From positions 1 to 8,645 of the forward strand of contig CAMWRC010000038.1 of NCBI GenBank assembly GCA_947176565.1: a stretch of DNA of 8,645 nt. Reading direction: 5' to 3'. Each line of letters starts with the position of its first letter. The first letter of the stretch is position 1. Below the pieces are notes generated by a model. It was not told the DNA's origin and made no database searches. It saw nothing but the letters and a program-made list of their open reading frames with translations. Source of the DNA: an uncultured Ruminococcus sp. (GTDB lineage Bacteria > Bacillota > Clostridia > Oscillospirales > Ruminococcaceae). The position numbers were made by a program, and so were the translations under genes. Shown here piece after piece: positions 1 through 8,645 of this stretch.

Positions 1-1065
1 ATTCATTATGTTCTTCGCTATCCTTAATGTTCCGTTTGAAAGTAGTATAGCTATACTTCCAATTGTCATAAATTCAGATGGTGTTGATTATACTGACCAA
101 ATCTATAAAAGGATTCGATTTTATCTTGGTAGGCTTAATATGATTTTCTTGAATAAGTTTTCTTCAAAAGAAGCACTTGTCTTGAAAATTTTTGAGCAAA
201 CCGGATTTGAAATAAACAATGAGGAATTAAAGGAAAGTTTGTATCATGCCAGTGAATCGGAATCATTGAGATTAAAGGCTCAAAATGATATTATGCTTAA
301 TTTTTCAAAAGAGTATTTTGACATAGCTGTATCCTCTGAAAGCAGAATCCTTGATGTTGGTTGTGCAAATGGTAATTATATAATGTCACATCTTGAGAGC
401 AGAGAATACAGAAGTTTATTGGGCATTGATATAGATTCAGAACAAATAGAACAAGCTAATCAAACGTATGAATCGGAAAAAAATACTTTTTTTGCTTGTG
501 ATGCGTTGTCAAACGAATTTGACTCAATCTTGTCTGATTATCTCGAAGAAAACGAAGCGTTGGGATTTGATTTGATACATATTTCAGCGATGTTGTTGCA
601 TTTAGTAAATCCTGTAAAGCTGCTTCAGACTTTAAGAAGATACTTGAAAAAAACGGACGATTATTTATTCAAGACGAAGACGATGGTGCTAATATTGTAT
701 ATCCAAATTCGCGGTTTTATGATTTAGCTTTTAGAATCTGGAAAGATTCAAAAGAAAGCGGAGATAGGCATTGTGCGCGTAAAATTCCGGATTATCTTTC
801 ACAAGCGGGTTTCAAAAGAGTGAAATTGGCAAAATGCGGAGTTTCGAATCCGGGATTGAGTAGTGAACAGCAGTCTGCACTGTGGGATATTTATTTTAAT
901 TACCATTTGTGGTTAGCAGCCGATGAAAATATATTTTATCATGTGAATGCAACAAATAAACTGCTTGAAGAATATAAAATACTGTATGAGGAATACAAAA
1001 AACAGTATGATAACGGAAAGACTTTCATCCAGCTTGGTTTTTTCTTCTATATTGCTCAGAAGTAG
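1..1065 (+). pseudogene. SAM-dependent methyltransferase-like gene, 5'-partial, with a -1 frameshift
   Basis: A class I SAM-dependent methyltransferase is encoded in two frames. Numbering from the ATG at 8, motif I is ILDVGCANG (residues 114-122), the post-I acidic strand is GIDID (139-143) and the motif II-like strand is FDLIH (187-191). After LKK (residue 215) the frame turns to nonsense and stops at 725-727. The -1 frame from position 652 continues the expected fold with NGRLFIQDEDDG and stays open to the TAG at 1063-1065, giving about 352 residues if joined. The break lies in a run of seven A (647-653); eight A would restore one frame. The frame is open to the left edge and the ATG at 8 has no visible Shine-Dalgarno site, so the true start may be outside. 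The first 100 residues and the lysine/tyrosine-rich C-terminal 80 are not recognised, and the substrate is unknown. The gene is clearly AT-richer than the minus-strand operon. It is either a decayed gene, a sequencing error in the homopolymer, or less likely a recoded one. Confidence 0.7.
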
Positions 1066-1417: not shown

Positions 1418-2998
1418 TTATACTCCGCTTTCACCATAATTTGAAAGCACACGCGCAGACGGGTCATTGACATCGCAGCCGTCCCATTCCTTGTTAGGCA
1501 TCCAGAAATCAACTACCATTTCTGAATTGCCGGAATAGTATTTCTCAAAAATTTCACGGTAGAGAAGCGATTCCTTTGTAAACGGTCGGGCGTGAACATA
1601 TTCAGCTGATTTCTCCTCAAACTCGGATTGAGTATACTGCTCCTCCGCATACATTTTCAGATAATCAACCATGGAATGACCAACTGCATCTGAAAACGCA
1701 GCTTTTTCGCGGTAGAGTATATCGACCGGAAGATAATCGCCCTCAAAAGCATGACGGAGCAGATATTTTCCCTTATTATATTTGTTGAGCTTCATTTCAG
1801 GGTCAATAGCCATAACATATTTTACAAAGTCGAGGTCGCCGAAAGGAACTCTTGCTTCAAGAGAATTTACCGATATACAGCGGTCTGCACGAAGTACATC
1901 ATACATATGAAGTTCACGTACACGCTTGACTGATTCTTTCTGGAACTCCTCCGCACTTGGTGCAAAATCAGTATACTTGTAACCGAAAAGCTCATCAGAT
2001 ATTTCACCTGTAAGAAGAACCCTTACATCAGTCTGTTCATGGATTGCCTTGCACAACAGATACATTCCCATACTTGCGCGTATAGTTGTAATATCATACG
2101 TACCTAAAATCTGAATAACTGTTTCAAGTGAATCAATAACATCATCTTTTGTTATGATAATCTCAGTATGTTCGCTGCCGATATAATCCGCAACCTGCTT
2201 GGCGTATTTAAGGTCAATAGCGTCGGTATTCATACCAATAGCGAATGTTCTTATCGGCTTATCACTTTTACGCTGTGCAACCGCACATACAAGAGAGGAA
2301 TCAAGTCCGCCTGACAGCAGGAATCCCACTTTTGCATCAGCCGCGAGACGTTTCTCAATACCAGCCACAAGCTTGTCATGAATATTTCTGCACACAGTTT
2401 CAATGTCATCATGTATTACTTTTTTTACCTCTGTTATATCGCAATAACAGGTAAATTCACCGTCTTTATAGTAATATCCCGGAGGGAATGGCATTATTTT
2501 TCTGCAAATCTTCGTGAGATTCTTCGCTTCACTTGCGAAAACCATTGAACCGTCATCAGTTTTTCCGTAATAAAGCGGACGTATGCCTATAGGGTCACGG
2601 GCAGCTATAAATCCATGACTTTCCGCATCGTAAATTATACAGGCAAACTCCGCGTCAAGCCGGCTGAACATCTCAACACCGTATTCCTTATACATCGGAA
2701 GAAGTATTTCGCAGTCGCTGTCGCTTCTGAAAGAATAGCCTTTTTTCACAAGTTCTTCGCGCTGTTTAAGGAATCCATATATCTCACCGTTGCATACTGC
2801 GTAATTTCCGTCAAGTTCAAAAGGCTGCATACCCTCTGGAGTAAGTCCCATAATCGAAAGTCTCTGGAATCCGAGAACTCCGTCATTCAAATCAATAATT
2901 CTGCAATCGTCAGGGCCGCGTGAAACAGTAGTTTCAAGTCCTTCCGAAACATATTTCATACCATCGGTTTTACCGAAGTAACCCATAATTGTACACAT
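1418..2998 (-). CDS. asnB: Asparagine synthase, glutamine-hydrolysing
   Basis: Cytoplasmic enzyme of 526 residues (E. coli AsnB is about 554) that makes asparagine from aspartate, ATP and the amide of glutamine. The protein begins Met-Cys, so removal of Met1 exposes the class II amidotransferase nucleophile Cys2. Glutaminase-domain motifs follow: RGPD (27-30), QRLSI (45-49), NGEIYG (70-75), SDCE (94-97) and RDPIGIRPLYYG (134-145). The synthetase domain has the pyrophosphate loop SGGLDSS (229-235), GEISDELFGY (331-340) and EARVPFGD (381-388). The ATG at 2996-2998 has the strong Shine-Dalgarno AGGGGAG seven or so bases upstream (about 3005-3011). It is the last gene of the minus-strand run, 38 nt after purF and just before a terminator. 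All catalytic landmarks are present, so it should be active. The B-type assignment rests on overall similarity. Confidence 0.95.
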   Translation of the reverse strand: MCTIMGYFGKTDGMKYVSEGLETTVSRGPDDCRIIDLNDGVLGFQRLSIMGLTPEGMQPFELDGNYAVCNGEIYGFLKQREELVKKGYSFRSDSDCEILLPMYKEYGVEMFSRLDAEFACIIYDAESHGFIAARDPIGIRPLYYGKTDDGSMVFASEAKNLTKICRKIMPFPPGYYYKDGEFTCYCDITEVKKVIHDDIETVCRNIHDKLVAGIEKRLAADAKVGFLLSGGLDSSLVCAVAQRKSDKPIRTFAIGMNTDAIDLKYAKQVADYIGSEHTEIIITKDDVIDSLETVIQILGTYDITTIRASMGMYLLCKAIHEQTDVRVLLTGEISDELFGYKYTDFAPSAEEFQKESVKRVRELHMYDVLRADRCISVNSLEARVPFGDLDFVKYVMAIDPEMKLNKYNKGKYLLRHAFEGDYLPVDILYREKAAFSDAVGHSMVDYLKMYAEEQYTQSEFEEKSAEYVHARPFTKESLLYREIFEKYYSGNSEMVVDFWMPNKEWDGCDVNDPSARVLSNYGESGV

Positions 2999-3036: not shown

Positions 3037-4455
3037 TTATGCATGAATTTTTTCATCAAATTTATCTTTCGTGCTTGCTCCTGAAACATCAACAGGATAT
3101 TTTCCGGAAAAACAGCCCATACAGAAATCATCACTGTCAACGAGATTACAGAGCTTGTCCGCCGGAAGATATGCAAGTGAATCCGCACCTATAGCCGCAG
3201 CAATTTCTGATTCTGAACTGCATCGGCTTGCTATAAGATTTTCCTCGCTGCCGATGTCAGTTCCAAAATAGCATGAATGAATAAACGGCGGCGACGATAT
3301 ACGGACATGAACTTCTTTTGCTCCTGCTTCGCGCAGAAGTCTGATAATTCTTGCGCTTGTAGTACCGCGGACTATAGAATCATCTATCATGATAACACGT
3401 TTTCCGGCAACGCTTTCACGGACGGCATTGAGTTTTATTTTCACTGCACTTTCGCGTTGATTTTGCTGAGGCTGTATAAAGCTTCTGCCTATGTATTTAT
3501 TTTTGATAAATCCTATTCCGTATGGAATACCACTTTTTTCGGCATATCCAAGAGCAGCATCAAGTCCGGAATCCGGTACGCCTATGACTATATCCGCATT
3601 AACAGGACAGCAGTCCGCAAGTATTCTGCCGGCACGCACTCTTGCAGCGTGAACCGATACCCCTTCGATTACGGAATCCGGACGCGCAAAATATATATAT
3701 TCAAAAATACAGATATTTTTTTTCTTTTTTACGTGAGTGCGTATGGATTTCACTTCTCCGCCGCTGAAAACAACGATTTCGCCAGCTTCGACATCGCGTA
3801 TAAATTCAGCTCCGACTGTTTCGAGTGCGCATGATTCAGATGCTGTGACATATGCTCCGTCAGCCGTCTTTCCGATACAAAGCGGACGGAATCCGTCAGG
3901 GTCGCGGAATGCTATAAGTTTCTGTGCCGTCATGATTATGCACGAATACGCACCTTTTATCTTCGGCATTGCACGCTCAACCGCTTCCTCTGTAGAATGG
4001 CATTTCAGACGTTCGCGTACAATTGCATACGCGATTGCTTCCGTATCGGACGTACCGTGAAATATTGCGCCTGAAAGTTCAAATTCCCGTCTCAGTTCAG
4101 CGGCGTTTATAAGATTTCCGTTATGAACGAGCGCAAGATTTCCCTTGACATGCCGTATAACCAGCGGCTGTATATTATTCGGATTTTTCCCTCCGAAAGT
4201 TGAATATCTCACATGACCTACAGCTATATTGCCTCTGCCGAGATGTTCAAGCTCCTCACGGCTGAAAACGTCCGAAACAAGACCGTCCGCACGTCTGTGA
4301 CTGAAAACGCCGTCATCATTCACAGCAATTCCGCAGCTTTCCTGACCGCGGTGCTGCAAGGCATAAAGTCCGAAATAGGTACTTGATGCCACATCAGCTG
4401 TATTTTCCTCATAAATGCCAAAAACTCCGCATTCCTCATGAATTTCATTAAACAT
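3037..4455 (-). CDS. purF: Amidophosphoribosyltransferase, Fe-S type
   Basis: First committed enzyme of de novo purine synthesis: PRPP plus glutamine gives 5-phosphoribosylamine, in the cytoplasm. The 472-residue protein starts with an eight-residue propeptide (MFNEIHEE) before Cys9, the class II amidotransferase nucleophile exposed by self-processing. Glutaminase motifs include QHRGQES (34-40), HNGNL (111-115) and GTSDTE (134-139). The PRPP site is VIMIDDSIVRGTT (354-366). Cys249, Cys395, Cys445 and Cys448 match the four [4Fe-4S] ligands of the B. subtilis-type enzyme, so this is the oxygen-sensitive Fe-S form rather than the E. coli form. Just before Cys249 lies a four-lysine stretch encoded by A-rich DNA (3716-3730). 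The ATG has GGGAG nine bases upstream (4465-4469). It sits 17 nt after the ANTAR gene and 38 nt before asnB, away from other pur genes within this window, grouping it with glutamine use. Confidence 0.96.
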   Translation of the reverse strand: MFNEIHEECGVFGIYEENTADVASSTYFGLYALQHRGQESCGIAVNDDGVFSHRRADGLVSDVFSREELEHLGRGNIAVGHVRYSTFGGKNPNNIQPLVIRHVKGNLALVHNGNLINAAELRREFELSGAIFHGTSDTEAIAYAIVRERLKCHSTEEAVERAMPKIKGAYSCIIMTAQKLIAFRDPDGFRPLCIGKTADGAYVTASESCALETVGAEFIRDVEAGEIVVFSGGEVKSIRTHVKKKKNICIFEYIYFARPDSVIEGVSVHAARVRAGRILADCCPVNADIVIGVPDSGLDAALGYAEKSGIPYGIGFIKNKYIGRSFIQPQQNQRESAVKIKLNAVRESVAGKRVIMIDDSIVRGTTSARIIRLLREAGAKEVHVRISSPPFIHSCYFGTDIGSEENLIASRCSSESEIAAAIGADSLAYLPADKLCNLVDSDDFCMGCFSGKYPVDVSGASTKDKFDEKIHA

Positions 4456-4472: not shown

Positions 4473-5054
4473 TTACATATACTGCTCGGCGATTCTGTCA
4501 ATTATCTCAGATGCAGCAATTGTTTTTTTCTTCCGGTTCTTCATGGCATACTGTTCAATATATGAATGTGCTTCATCTTCCGTCATATTCCGGTACTGCA
4601 TAAGCCTGAATTTTGCCTTGTCTATAAGCTTTATATCTTCAATTTTCCGTTCAAGCCTGACTGTTTCCTCATAAAGCGCATATGAACGCCGTATAGAAAT
4701 ATTCACTGCTTTTATTACCTGATGCAGAAGCTGCTTTGAAAACGGCTTTGCAACAAGTATAATATCGCCTCTGTCAGCTCTTGGGCTGACTTTTTCATAA
4801 TTATCGCTTTTTATAAGTACGAGACAGCTTGCGGCGGTTATTTCAGATGCATATTCCGCAAGTTCGATTCCGGCTTCGTCAGAAAGCGGACTATTTATAA
4901 GTACGAGCTCAAATCCGCGGCTTTTACTGAGTATCTCACGGGCACGGCGTGCTGTTTCAGCTATTGTAACCTGACAGTGGAATGATTCTTTTATAAAAGC
5001 CGAAAGCGACTCCGCCGCCGAACTGCTGCTTGAAATTACAATAACATTTTCCAA
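4473..5054 (-). CDS. ANTAR-domain regulator with a degenerate receiver domain (NitR-like)
   Basis: A 193-residue response-regulator-like protein. Residues 1-120 form a receiver-like domain, about 125-140 a helical linker likely to be coiled coil, and about 135-190 an ANTAR RNA-binding domain, recognisable by KAKFRLMQYRNMTEDEA (146-162) and the following YAMKNRKKK...ASEII segment. ANTAR proteins bind paired small hairpins in nascent mRNA and prevent termination; related regulators sit beside glnA in solvent-forming clostridia (recalled as NitR). Here the receiver lacks the phosphorylation pocket: the usual acidic pair after strand 1 is a serine run (VISSSSS), and the acceptor Asp of strand 3 is Asn54 (LVLINSPL), though Lys103-Pro104 is kept. 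Phosphorylation control is therefore unlikely and a ligand or partner protein may act instead. The start is a TTG with GGAGG six bases upstream. It lies 12 nt after the GS-like gene. No histidine kinase is present in the window. Confidence 0.88.
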   Translation of the reverse strand: MENVIVISSSSSAAESLSAFIKESFHCQVTIAETARRAREILSKSRGFELVLINSPLSDEAGIELAEYASEITAASCLVLIKSDNYEKVSPRADRGDIILVAKPFSKQLLHQVIKAVNISIRRSYALYEETVRLERKIEDIKLIDKAKFRLMQYRNMTEDEAHSYIEQYAMKNRKKKTIAASEIIDRIAEQYM

Positions 5055-5066: not shown

Positions 5067-6362
5067 TTACAGACTGTAGAAATATTTTTTATCCTCATAC
5101 AGCTCCTTGTCATATTCAGAAGAATATTCCCTCCACTCTGACTTTGAGCTTTCCACAACCGTATCAATAACACACTGCGGAACATATCTTTTCAGAAATT
5201 CTGAATTTTCTGCTGTCTGCGCAGCTTCGAGAAGATTTTCAGGAAGCGTTTCATAACATCTGCAATCAGGGTCAAATTTTTCAGCCATTTCGAACTTATT
5301 TCCGATTCCATCCATTGCAGCATATATCAGAAGTCCGAACACAAAATACGGATTGCATACGCAGTCAGGAGCGCGGAGTACAACAGGTGCTTCATCAATA
5401 TTATTGATATTCAGTTTGACAAGCTGTTCCTGCTCCTCATCAGACCATGTAATATATCTTGGACGTGAAAATTCACCAAAACGGTTGTACGAGTTTACGG
5501 TAGAATTGGTAAACACAGTATATTCACGGATAAATTTCATTATTCCGGCAGCAGCCATTTTAACTGCTTCTGAATTATCAGAATCAATATCGTTATTGAA
5601 AAAATCGCTGTCGCGGAAAACGTTCACACCGATATGCATACCGTTTCCGCAGTCATTGCGAACCGGCTTCGGCATAAAGCTTGCGTGTATACCATGCTGT
5701 TCAGCTACTGACTTTACAGCAGATTTGAAACTCAGAAACGTATCGGCGGCTTTCAGAGCAGATGAAGCGTTGAAATCTATCTCATGCTGTCCGTGACCGG
5801 CTTCATGACGGGAAGATACAGGGTGTATGCCCATCTGCTCCAGCGTGAAGCATACATCACGGCGGAAATTCTCTCCCTTATCATCGGGAGCTGTATCGCA
5901 GTATCCTGCATAATCATGCGGAATTTTCGTCGGCATACCGCTTTCGTCATTCCGGAAAAGCATAAATTCGCTTGATGTTCCGAACCGGAAACACCACCCC
6001 TTTCCGAGTGATGTTTTCATAGCCTGCTTGAGAAAATATCTTCCGTCACCCTCAAACGGAGTACCGTCACCGTATCTGATATAGCAGAACATTCGTATAA
6101 CCCGTCCGTGCTGCGGTCTCCACGGGAGAACCCGCATAGTCTGTGAATCAGGATATAAATATAAATCCCGTCCTCCTGCAATTCCGAATCCGAATATTTT
6201 CTTTGCTGTAATTCTGACGCCATGTTCAAATGCTGCTGCCATTTCAGACGAAATAACCGATATATTTTTAAGTGAACCCTTTAAATCACAGAATGTAAGC
6301 TTTACGAATTTCACATCATTTTCGTCAATATACTGCAAGACCTCATTTTCTGTATAAATCAT
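5067..6362 (-). CDS. Glutamine synthetase family protein, GS-I fold, probably catalytically degenerate
   Basis: This 431-residue protein follows the glutamine synthetase type I architecture: an N-terminal beta-grasp (VKFVKLTFCDLKGSLKN, 17-33) and a catalytic domain with APDDKGENFRRDV (158-170), RHEAGHGQHEIDF (185-197), HASFMPKP (226-233), CGNGMH (238-243), TVNSYNRF (288-295) and NPYFVFGLLI (337-346). By eye alignment to the Salmonella/E. coli enzyme, ligands E131, E212, E220 and H269 are kept (E132, E187, E194, H243), as are R321 (R294) and R359 (R330). Key positions are changed: D50 to Thr52, S53 to Lys55, E129 to Ser130, flap E327 to Ser299, R339 to Gln311, R344 to Lys316 and E357 to Val328. 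The Tyr397 adenylylation loop is absent. Normal glutamine synthesis is therefore doubtful; a sensor or regulatory role, or a different ligase reaction, is possible. The ATG at 6360-6362 is chosen for its AAGGAG site. It is placed between gltD (32 nt) and the ANTAR gene (12 nt). Confidence 0.85.
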   Translation of the reverse strand: MIYTENEVLQYIDENDVKFVKLTFCDLKGSLKNISVISSEMAAAFEHGVRITAKKIFGFGIAGGRDLYLYPDSQTMRVLPWRPQHGRVIRMFCYIRYGDGTPFEGDGRYFLKQAMKTSLGKGWCFRFGTSSEFMLFRNDESGMPTKIPHDYAGYCDTAPDDKGENFRRDVCFTLEQMGIHPVSSRHEAGHGQHEIDFNASSALKAADTFLSFKSAVKSVAEQHGIHASFMPKPVRNDCGNGMHIGVNVFRDSDFFNNDIDSDNSEAVKMAAAGIMKFIREYTVFTNSTVNSYNRFGEFSRPRYITWSDEEQEQLVKLNINNIDEAPVVLRAPDCVCNPYFVFGLLIYAAMDGIGNKFEMAEKFDPDCRCYETLPENLLEAAQTAENSEFLKRYVPQCVIDTVVESSKSEWREYSSEYDKELYEDKKYFYSL

Positions 6363-6369
6363 AACCGCA

Positions 6370-6375
6370 CTCCTT
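6370..6375 (-). promoter_or_regulatory. Ribosome binding site deciding the start of the GS-like gene
   Basis: AAGGAG on the minus strand sits about seven bases before ATG 6360-6362. A GTG at 6396-6398, overlapping the gltD stop as GTGA, would add twelve residues (MILFSDSERSAV) unlike any GS N-terminus, and it lacks a comparable site, so the ATG is preferred. Confidence 0.75.
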
Positions 6376-6394
6376 TCAGAATCCGAAAAAAGAA

Positions 6395-7879
6395 TCACAG
6401 ATTGCTGTATCCCATAAGATATTCATCAGTTTCGCGGGCTGCATCTCTGCCCTCACGGATTGCACGCACAACAAGTGACTGACCTATATGCATATCCCCC
6501 GCTGTGAATACCTTTTCGATATTCGTAGAAAACTTTCCGCTTCCTGTATTGACAACGTTTCTGCCGTTCAGTTCAACGCCGAAAGCATCAGCAACATACG
6601 TCTGCGCGCCTGTGAATCCTGCCGCTATAAGACAGAGTTCACAGCTGATAATTTCTTCGCTGCCTTCGATTTCTTTTGGAATCATTCTGCCGGATTCATT
6701 ATCTTTAACAAATTCAAGACGTACTGTCTTTACAGCTGTGAGATTATTTCCGTCATCTCTGATAAATTCCTTTACAGTAGTACAGTATTTTCTGGGGTCG
6801 CTGCCAAAGACTGCCGCTGCTTCTTCCTGACCGTAATCAGTCTTGCATATTCTGGGATATTCCGGCCACGGATTATTTTCTGCGCGTTCATCGGGAAGTT
6901 TCGGCATCATTTCAAGCTGTATGACTGACGCGCAGCCATGTCTTACAGCTGTACCTACGCAGTCGTTTCCGGTATCGCCGCCGCCGATTACAACAACATT
7001 TTTTCCCTCAGCCGATATATAGTTATCATCAGCAAGTGCGGAATCGAGCAGACTTTTTGTAGTTGATTTAAGAAAATCAACTGCAAAATATATTCCGGCT
7101 GCATCTCTGCCCTCAGCCTTTATATCACGGGGTTCTGACGAACCGCAGGCAAGAATTACTGCATCTGATTTTCTGAGTATCTCTCCGGCTGATATATTAT
7201 GACCTACATCAGCATTGGTGATAAACTGCACGCCCTCTGCTTTCATGATTTCAATACGGCGGTTTACAACTGATTTTTCGAGCTTCATATTCGGGATTCC
7301 GTACATAAGAAGTCCGCCTGCCCTGTCTGAACGCTCATATACAGTAACAAAGTGTCCGCGTTTATTTAGTGTATCAGCAGCTGCAAGTCCTGCCGGTCCT
7401 GAACCGATAACAGCAATTTTCTTACCGCTTCTTACTTTCGGAATCTCAGGCTTTATAAGACCGCTGCTGAATCCGTATTCTATAATTGCGTTCTCGTTTT
7501 CCTTTACCGTAACCGGACTGCCGTTCAGTCCGCAGGTACAGGCTTTTTCACAGAGAGCCGGACAGACTCTCGATGTAAATTCCGGAAAATTATTAGTCAT
7601 AAGAAGTCTCTCAAGTGCCTGCTCCTTATGGTCATGATAAAGCAGGTCATTCCATTCCGGAATAAGATTGTTAAGCGGACAGCCTGAAATCATGCCGTTT
7701 ATTGCTTTACCGTTCTGACAGAACGGTACTCCGCAGTCCATACAGCGTGCTGCCTGAGCCTTTCTCTGCCTGTCTGTCAGCGGTTCGTGAAATTCGCTGT
7801 AATTCTTTATACGCTCCAGCGGCTGGAACGCGGTGTTGTCATTTCTTTCAAATTCAAGAAATCCTGTAGGCTTTCCCAT
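6395..7879 (-). CDS. gltD: Glutamate synthase small subunit (NADPH, FAD, Fe-S)
   Basis: The 494-residue beta subunit of glutamate synthase passes electrons from NAD(P)H through FAD and Fe-S clusters to the GltB subunit, which converts glutamine plus 2-oxoglutarate to two glutamates. The N-terminal Fe-S domain shows Cys46, Cys49, Cys54 and Cys67, then Cys106, Cys110, Cys114 and Cys116. The FAD Rossmann motif is VIGSGPAGLAAA (157-168), the NADPH Rossmann motif is VVIGGGDTGND (296-306), and the C-terminal FAD signature is FTAGDMHIGQSLVVRAIREG (458-477). The length is normal for GltD. The ATG at 7877-7879 is only three bases from the gltB stop, and its AGGAG (7890-7894) lies inside the gltB 3' end, so translation is probably coupled and the subunits made in matched amounts. 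No key residue is missing. Confidence 0.97.
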   Translation of the reverse strand: MGKPTGFLEFERNDNTAFQPLERIKNYSEFHEPLTDRQRKAQAARCMDCGVPFCQNGKAINGMISGCPLNNLIPEWNDLLYHDHKEQALERLLMTNNFPEFTSRVCPALCEKACTCGLNGSPVTVKENENAIIEYGFSSGLIKPEIPKVRSGKKIAVIGSGPAGLAAADTLNKRGHFVTVYERSDRAGGLLMYGIPNMKLEKSVVNRRIEIMKAEGVQFITNADVGHNISAGEILRKSDAVILACGSSEPRDIKAEGRDAAGIYFAVDFLKSTTKSLLDSALADDNYISAEGKNVVVIGGGDTGNDCVGTAVRHGCASVIQLEMMPKLPDERAENNPWPEYPRICKTDYGQEEAAAVFGSDPRKYCTTVKEFIRDDGNNLTAVKTVRLEFVKDNESGRMIPKEIEGSEEIISCELCLIAAGFTGAQTYVADAFGVELNGRNVVNTGSGKFSTNIEKVFTAGDMHIGQSLVVRAIREGRDAARETDEYLMGYSNL

Positions 7880-7882
7880 AAA

Positions 7883-8645
7883 TCAGCTCTCCTTCTTTGT
7901 AATATAGAACGCTTCGATTTCAGCCTGTTCACTGCTCATTCCTTTTTCTTCAAGAGCAACGACAGTACTCTGTATCTTTGCATAATCATGAGGGAGAATC
8001 TTCTTGAAGCTGCCGATATAGCTTGCGAAATCTTCAAGTATTCTTCCGGCTTTTTCAGAACCTGTAGCGTTGTAATGCTCCTGAATGATATTTTTGAGTT
8101 CCATGATGTCATATTTGTTAGTTACAGATTCGAGCGATACAAGAGACTTGTTTATCTTCATGTACAGATTTCTGTCCTCATCAAGAACATATGCGATTCC
8201 GCCTGACATTCCGGCAGCGAAGTTCTTGCCGGTACGTCCGAGAATAACAACACGTCCGCCGGTCATATATTCGCAGCCGTGGTCGCCTGTACCTTCACAT
8301 ACTGCAACAGCTCCGGAATTTCTTACACAGAATCTTTCACCTGCTATGCCGTTTATGAACGCCTTGCCGCTTGTTGCACCGTAAAGAGCAACGTTGCCGG
8401 CAATGATATTATCTTCCGCCTTGAATCCTGAATTTGCCGGCGGATAAAGTATGAGCTTTCCGCCCGAAAGACCTTTTCCGAAATAGTCGTTACTGTCTCC
8501 GGAAAGTTCAAGCGTAAGACCCTTAGGAATAAATGCTCCGAAACTCTGACCGCCGCTTCCGTGGCACTTAACAGTGAATGTATCGTCCGGAAGTACATGG
8601 CTGTCTCCCCATTTTCTGGTAATTTCCGAACCGAAAAGCGTACCG
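7883..8645 (-). CDS. gltB: Glutamate synthase large subunit, C-terminal part only
   Basis: The frame is open from the right edge of the window to a TGA at 7883-7885, giving the last 253 or so residues of the large subunit. It reads through the end of the FMN/synthase domain (GTLFGSEITRKWG) and the structural GXGXG beta-helix: HGSGGQSFGAF, GDSNDYFGKGLSGGKL, GNVALYGATSGKAF, NSGAVAVCEGTGDHGCEY and MTGGRVVILGRTGKNFAAG. It then ends in the usual helical tail (Y/NATGSEKAGRILEDF ... LPHDYAKI). An internal Met at 8264-8266 is part of the conserved GCEYMTGGR segment and is not a start. The glutaminase Cys, FMN and 3Fe-4S regions lie beyond the window. The protein works as a complex with GltD, encoded three bases downstream, and this is the first visible gene of the operon. 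Confidence 0.97.
   Translation of the reverse strand, partial: GTLFGSEITRKWGDSHVLPDDTFTVKCHGSGGQSFGAFIPKGLTLELSGDSNDYFGKGLSGGKLILYPPANSGFKAEDNIIAGNVALYGATSGKAFINGIAGERFCVRNSGAVAVCEGTGDHGCEYMTGGRVVILGRTGKNFAAGMSGGIAYVLDEDRNLYMKINKSLVSLESVTNKYDIMELKNIIQEHYNATGSEKAGRILEDFASYIGSFKKILPHDYAKIQSTVVALEEKGMSSEQAEIEAFYITKKES

Follow-up and report, generated by a model that had tools for sequence, protein, structure and literature searches.

A glutamine synthetase relative lacking catalytic residues as a candidate nitrogen-sensing partner of an ANTAR regulator in Ruminococcus

Introduction

NitR of Clostridium saccharobutylicum was reportedly described by Stutz et al. in 2007 as an ANTAR antiterminator of the glutamine synthetase (GS) and glutamate synthase (GOGAT) genes; the GS of that system is a working enzyme. 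AmiC, of the AmiC–AmiR pair, is a binding protein. In the available parts of the papers cited here by PMC number, to which all such statements are limited, NitR induces the genes of the GS/GOGAT cycle on nitrogen limitation through a mechanism that is not fully understood (PMC6316151), ANTAR proteins with a pseudo-receiver are controlled through a partner protein (PMC3369931), and in Bacillus-type GS the D50 loop and the E flap make most of the contacts with GlnR (PMC9249791). Here we describe a window of 8,645 nucleotides, one whole contig (C38; GenBank CAMWRC010000038.1) of a 66% complete assembly of an uncultured Ruminococcus sp., which encodes a GS-like protein immediately followed by an ANTAR-domain protein. 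The GS-like protein is a relative of GS that has lost catalytic residues and probably serves as the nitrogen-sensing partner of the adjoining ANTAR regulator, which is predicted to bind RNA.

Results and discussion

The GS-like gene runs on the minus strand from an ATG at 6362-6360 to a TAA at 5069-5067 with its frame intact. Both the β-grasp and the catalytic domain of GS are recognised by Pfam, and a structure search returned the GS fold and nothing beyond what the sequence had given. The score against TIGR00653, the GlnA equivalog, is 267.5 bits, far below the cut-off of 429.15. Alignment with Bacillus subtilis GS, in Salmonella numbering, gives the replacements D50 to T, S52 to K, S53 to K, E129 to S, E327 to S, R339 to Q, R344 to K, R355 to P and E357 to V, while E131, E212, E220, H269, R321 and R359 are retained. 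The motifs flanking the substituted columns fix the register of the alignment. The original prediction, made by eye from the sequence, had the coordinates right; every substitution that it listed is borne out, as are its intact frame, its ribosome binding site (Table 1) and the retention of E131, E212, E220, R321 and R359. What is missing is the set found in GlnA enzymes, namely Asp50, Glu327, the n2-metal ligands and the phosphate Arg residues. Judged by its sequence, the protein is not a GlnA enzyme; it would belong with the ANTAR-with-sensor kind, as a variant built from GS.

The same losses were followed in 121 orthologues (the window protein and the best 120 of 2281 matches). D50, E327 and R355 are lost in all 121, with Asp at the E327 column in two; S53 is replaced by Lys in 120 and Asn in one, E129 by Ser in 120 and Thr in one, and R339 is lost in 117. 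Retention of E357 (62/121) and R344 (78/121) is common, so that the substitutions first noted in the window protein are fixed or nearly so throughout the group at D50, S53, E129 and E327, but hold for only some members at E357 and R344. We add as a caveat to the loss of E327 that the flap reads GEF[ST], with a Glu two positions ahead of that column in 118/121 orthologues and an Asp in three. The ratio dN/dS of the gene, measured against six orthologues, is 0.026-0.082, a sign of strong purifying selection, and no internal stops occur among the window-type matches listed. Since dN/dS is low and the replacements are conserved, the gene has diverged under selection and has not decayed, as had been proposed from the intact frame.

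The ANTAR gene starts 12 nt downstream of the GS-like stop. Its product scores 51.2 bits against the ANTAR domain (cut-off 27.3) and 23.2 bits against Response_reg, under the cut-off of 30.2. In 41 of the 43 window-type loci, the GS stop is followed directly by an ANTAR gene of the same orientation; the two that show none (L011 and L093) represent a single locus that lies where a contig ends. Because the two collections overlap, 32 different GS sequences are found among the 43 loci. In genus relatives, too, the GS-ANTAR pair lies after gltBD and before purF and asnB. The phosphoacceptor column of the receiver is without Asp in all 41 window-type partners (N in 30, Y in 8, S in 2 and H in 1), and control through a partner protein is therefore to be expected. 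Of the RNA-contact residues described for EutV (PMC8934654), the window ANTAR protein has counterparts, identically spaced, of Lys143, Lys147, Lys149, Glu160, Met172 and Arg175, and it has Lys in place of both Arg177 and Asn173. The nitrogen-sensor role suggested in the original prediction fits the genomic context. GS acting on GlnR and TnrA was offered there as the parallel, but the context favours a different partner, the ANTAR antiterminator encoded by the adjoining gene.

A second GS-I paralogue occurs in the same assembly (contig C114, L001:21-1292), likewise with an ANTAR gene next to it. In loci of this second type (L120-L149 and L001) the ANTAR gene follows GS in 30/30, and the acceptor column lacks Asp in 29/30 of the partners. 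The active site has been lost differently: E129 is R or K in 30/30, E212 is K in 30/30, H269 is lost in 30/30 and E327 is Y in 26/30, while D50 is retained in 30/30. From sequence, it is as if the basic side chains at E129 and E212 stood in for metals. Counted as lower bounds, the window type (identity ≥57%) is present in at least 90 and the second type (identity ≥60%) in at least 107 of 125 genus genomes; 81 have both, 9 neither, 9 the window type alone and 26 the second type alone. One second-type GS (G065:C32:70698-71984) contains a single in-frame TAG.

Among relatives, graded states of the active site are found. The 32 GS outside both types (L017-L048) retain the catalytic residues at all but a few positions, and eight of them have an ANTAR neighbour, seven downstream and one upstream. 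Among best-scoring matches in the family, which are not a random draw, 8/8 loci from other genera (L168-L175) pair an ANTAR gene with a GS that is intact at the metal and flap sites and differs only at S53; a further 15 (L153-L167) are dead in the manner of the second type (E129 lost in 14/15, E212 in 15/15), one of which (L156) shows no ANTAR gene. Two GS-ANTAR pairs in G052 (L207) and G087 (L208), which lie outside the counted list of window-type genomes, have by eye lost the flap Glu327 and kept the metal ligands; their GS sequences possibly represent an early stage of active-site loss. In trees the window type forms one clade for GS (100) and for ANTAR (100), and the second type one clade for GS (100) and, more weakly, for ANTAR (74). 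A single clade of all dead GS forms is not rejected by the GS data (p-AU 0.459), so that the two paralogues may have lost catalysis either together or independently.

The search for another GS gene in the genome, which the original prediction had called for, was answered by GS-III. It is present in 118/125 genus genomes, including 68/68 of the good ones, and in the window's own assembly as a fragment cut by a contig end. The complete GS-III of a relative aligns end to end with the solved GS-III 3o6x and contains all of the motifs GPEQEYF, HNEVAPAQHE, NGSGKH, RLGANEAPP, NRTSPF and FEFR. We infer that glutamine synthesis in Ruminococcus is performed by GS-III.

A candidate RNA target lies ahead of gltB. 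In several relatives a divergent ammonium transporter gene (amt) stands upstream of gltB, fused to PII in one of them (L004). The leaders contain a hairpin with a four-pair stem and a six-base loop, preceded just 5′ by promoter-like hexamers recognised by eye; the loop and the 3′ strand also serve as the 5′ half of an intrinsic terminator helix. The hairpin was found ahead of gltB in 12/12 loci with that DNA and ahead of amt in nine. In these 21 leaders, which were gathered by the hairpin pattern, the closing C:G pair and G4 of the loop are invariant (21/21 each) and A1 is present in 20/21; A1, G4 and the closing C:G agree with the ANTAR motif (PMC3369931; NasR selection, PMC7496416). Two stem pairs are exchanged on both strands between the gltB and amt leaders. 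The terminator helix, which starts with A1 of the loop, is 93.8% paired and overlaps the hexaloop hairpin; formation of one should exclude the other. A further hexaloop follows at a distance of 60-78 nt (230 nt in one leader) in 7/12 gltB leaders and 8/9 amt leaders. EutV requires a short spacing between hexaloops, although the minimal ANTAR binding motif has been redefined as a single hexaloop (PMC8934654). A strict search for dual hexaloops (gap ≤25 nt) ahead of gltB in 12 loci found none, against 0.36 expected, with the caveat that in L009, whose gltB frame was cut, the stretch examined was the wrong one; the scan for a single hexaloop with a terminator was adopted because that search was empty. 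Rfam gave no match within the window. One gltB leader hairpin (L014:3862-3934, plus strand) has the loop GATGGC and hence no A1, and in its genome GS-III stands directly upstream of gltB, where amt would be. Looser leader hits at the second GS-ANTAR pair (L129, L131 and L133) were rejected, being by eye two coding starts and one plain terminator.

A leader model, R1, was used to search genomes. The window's own genome contains one match, in the gltB leader on contig C147 (leader at 240-298; E 4.7e-13), and 12 further genus genomes contain 48 at E ≤ 0.5. We inspected the 30 of these with loci together with the one from the window's own genome, several of them being training sequences. The gene that follows is gltB in 12 cases, amt in 11 (two of the amt cases being read from an out-of-frame overlap), CTP synthase in one and a circularly permuted ATP-grasp protein in another. 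In six the strict hairpin or a nitrogen gene is missing, among them L204, which by eye precedes an asparagine synthase-like open reading frame. The ATP-grasp case (L200; G120:C12:9103-9150, minus strand) is a hexaloop/terminator leader before a gene of Pfam PF14403.

At E ≤ 0.001, R1 matches occur in 87/125 genus genomes and, with the window's own genome excluded, in 6/123 genomes drawn from the rest of the phylum; both large searches ran under tighter filtering, at the cost of weak matches, and G007 and G009 count as misses despite matches at 0.003-0.004. The six outside matches (L211-L216), none of them used in training and all from other families, precede GS-III (three), an ammonium transporter (two) and a GS-I with catalytic motifs (one), and five of the six carry the A1/G4 hexaloop on at least four pairs. 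They are the best check that the R1 element is a nitrogen-control leader. Matches are associated more strongly with the window-type gene (79/90 genomes with it, 8/35 without; Fisher p 6e-12) than with the second type (80/107 with, 7/18 without; p 0.004), both p values being inflated by shared ancestry and training. R1 could be used to map a wider ANTAR nitrogen regulon.

These observations suggest a mechanism. The GS-like protein would keep the GS ring and bind an amino acid, with glutamine and glutamate the likeliest candidates, in the part of the site that is kept (E131, E212, E220, H269, R321 and R359); the proposed ligand follows from these pocket residues. It would be unable to capture ammonium or to hold the second metal and the ATP phosphates, and catalysis would be left to GS-III. 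The remodelled D50 loop and E flap may bind the receiver domain of the ANTAR protein. When glutamine is abundant, the dead GS would keep its regulator bound; when glutamine runs short, the regulator would be set free, bind the leader hairpin and block the overlapping terminator, allowing RNA polymerase to enter gltB-gltD-deadGS-ANTAR-purF-asnB and amt. Holding by ligand is the proposed direction because NitR acts on nitrogen limitation and Bacillus GS reports glutamine excess (PMC6316151, PMC9249791). Receptor, RNA-binding output and leader targets would form a three-part switch that sits inside the operon under its control. The sensor idea is thus plausible, and now has a concrete candidate partner and target.

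Several observations weigh against this proposal. The adjacency of the GS and ANTAR genes also fits co-regulation without contact. Arg62 of B. subtilis GS, tied to the inhibited state (PMC9249791), is not kept in the GS-like protein, and the EutV contacts R142, R168 and Y164 are Ile, Glu and His in the window ANTAR protein. The second hexaloops are farther on than the spacing that EutV tolerates (PMC8934654). Ahead of the second GS-ANTAR pair, no AA.G hexaloop with a terminator was found in the 26/30 loci with enough upstream DNA. All of the stem cells in the 21 leaders are paired (84/84), partly by construction, as the leaders were picked by their hairpin pattern; likewise the R1-gene association is partly built in, because leaders of such loci served to train R1. 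At E ≤ 0.001, 11/90 window-type genomes lack R1 and 8/35 genomes without the gene have it.

Other explanations were weighed against the same data. The dead GS might sense nitrogen for another target, such as GS-III, the Amt-PII fusion or a GlnR-like repressor, with the ANTAR gene a mere neighbour; genes for GS-III and the Amt-PII fusion do lie near the locus in relatives, and Bacillus GS acts on GlnR and TnrA (PMC9249791). Yet the pairing of GS and ANTAR genes is seen at two distinct loci and again in other family genera, even with different neighbours, and we regard this explanation as unlikely. It is quite improbable that the GS fold has been adapted to couple glutamate with a different amine, in the manner of γ-glutamylmethylamide or γ-glutamylputrescine synthetases, which the original prediction gave as its main alternative. 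E129, E327, R355 and mostly R339 are gone, and these presumably serve the metal and phosphate handling common to such ligases; the scores lie far below the cut-offs (195.5 of 469.6 for the type III ligase model, 175.2 of 650 for the GGputSyn model), and the neighbours gltD, ANTAR, purF and asnB include no amine-handling gene.

Slightly more doubtful still is a helper subunit, in which the dead GS would form a mixed assembly with the second paralogue, or with some other GS, and complete composite inter-subunit active sites. GS active sites do lie between subunits, and the D50 of the second type could be thought to complement the E131, E212 and E220 of the window type, but no pairing of the two types completes an active site because neither supplies E129 or E327; moreover, one type stands alone in many genomes (9/125 window, 26/125 second), although many assemblies are incomplete. 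That the protein has remained a GS, in which the Glu conserved in the GEF[ST] flap takes the place of E327, appears very unlikely: that Glu and the frequent retention of E357 speak for it, but D50, S53, E129 and R355 are lost too, and GS-III is nearly always present in the genus. Decay of a paralogue without a role would account for the lost catalytic residues, but we give it practically no credence in view of the fixed replacements, the fixed gene order and the lack of stops among the matches listed; functionless decay is rejected by dN/dS. We retain, as the probable reading, a dead GS that senses nitrogen for the ANTAR regulator.

The window comprises a one-strand gene run in which the GS-like gene and its ANTAR neighbour are flanked by glutamate synthase genes and by purF and asnB (Table 1). 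On the opposite strand, a methyltransferase-domain open reading frame occupies the start of the window (8-727, plus), and a short open reading frame (1094-1333, plus) has an end that by eye resembles a dockerin repeat (DNRLDIFDLCMMKQLL), with no Pfam match.

Table 1. Features located in the 8,645-nucleotide window
Feature	Positions	Strand	Evidence and remarks
gltB 3′ end, glutamate synthase large subunit	7883..8644	minus	open at window edge; directly precedes gltD in relatives
gltD, glutamate synthase small subunit	6395..7879	minus	TIGR01317, 677.9 bits; synteny; directly upstream of the GS-like gene
Ribosome binding site AAAGGAG	6370..6376	minus	7 nt 5′ of the GS-like ATG; from sequence
GS-like pseudoenzyme, 431 amino acids	5067..6362	minus	GS-I fold; D50, S53, E129, E327, R339, R344, R355 and E357 replaced
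ANTAR-domain regulator, 193 amino acids, TTG start	4473..5054	minus	Pfam; degenerate receiver, acceptor Asp replaced by Asn (LINSPL)
purF, glutamine amidophosphoribosyltransferase	3037..4455	minus	TIGR01134, 509.7 bits; synteny
asnB, glutamine-hydrolysing asparagine synthase	1418..2998	minus	NF006949, 617 bits; synteny

Conclusions

Taken more broadly, and with the chances about evenly balanced, the GS function of Ruminococcus may have been split: GS-III would carry out the chemistry, and the type I GS would be a dead glutamine receptor gating a phosphorylation-free ANTAR antiterminator, in two receptor-switch pairs with differently ruined sites, the family keeping the steps from enzyme to sensor. 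A dead GS fixed beside an ANTAR gene is a direct candidate for the sensor in clostridial nitrogen control, and suggests that active GS does the same job where it adjoins ANTAR genes. If true, this would be an enzyme turned receptor, with intermediate stages alive in one family of ammonia-assimilating gut and rumen bacteria. A literature search, in which subscription journals were thinly covered so that absence is not proven, found no paper in which an inactive GS works together with an ANTAR protein.

Four described systems come closest to this arrangement. As with EutV, an A1/G4 hexaloop overlaps an intrinsic terminator and the ANTAR RNA contacts are largely kept (PMC3369931, PMC8934654), but EutV is switched by phosphorylation and requires two close hexaloops, whereas the Ruminococcus receiver has no acceptor Asp and its hexaloops are far apart. 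In the AmiC-AmiR and NasS-NasT pairs, a small-molecule-binding protein holds a (pseudo-)receiver ANTAR protein until a nitrogen compound is sensed, and the target is leader RNA (PMC3795266, PMC3369931). There, however, the ligand releases the ANTAR protein, where we propose ligand-driven holding, and NasS resembles a nitrate-binding transport protein; the Ruminococcus candidate has the GS fold in place of the solute-binding-protein fold of such sensors. Feedback-inhibited Bacillus GS signals nitrogen excess to GlnR and TnrA by protein contact, mostly through the D50 loop and the E flap (PMC9249791), but it is an active enzyme with a DNA-binding partner, whereas the Ruminococcus GS has lost catalytic residues, has both loops remodelled and would act on an ANTAR protein. 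NitR, like the regulator described here, is an ANTAR protein linked to GS and glutamate synthase genes (PMC6316151). The Ruminococcus regulator differs in adjoining a dead GS, with GS-III present, and, where the available part of PMC6316151 names no sensor partner for NitR, Ruminococcus offers a candidate.
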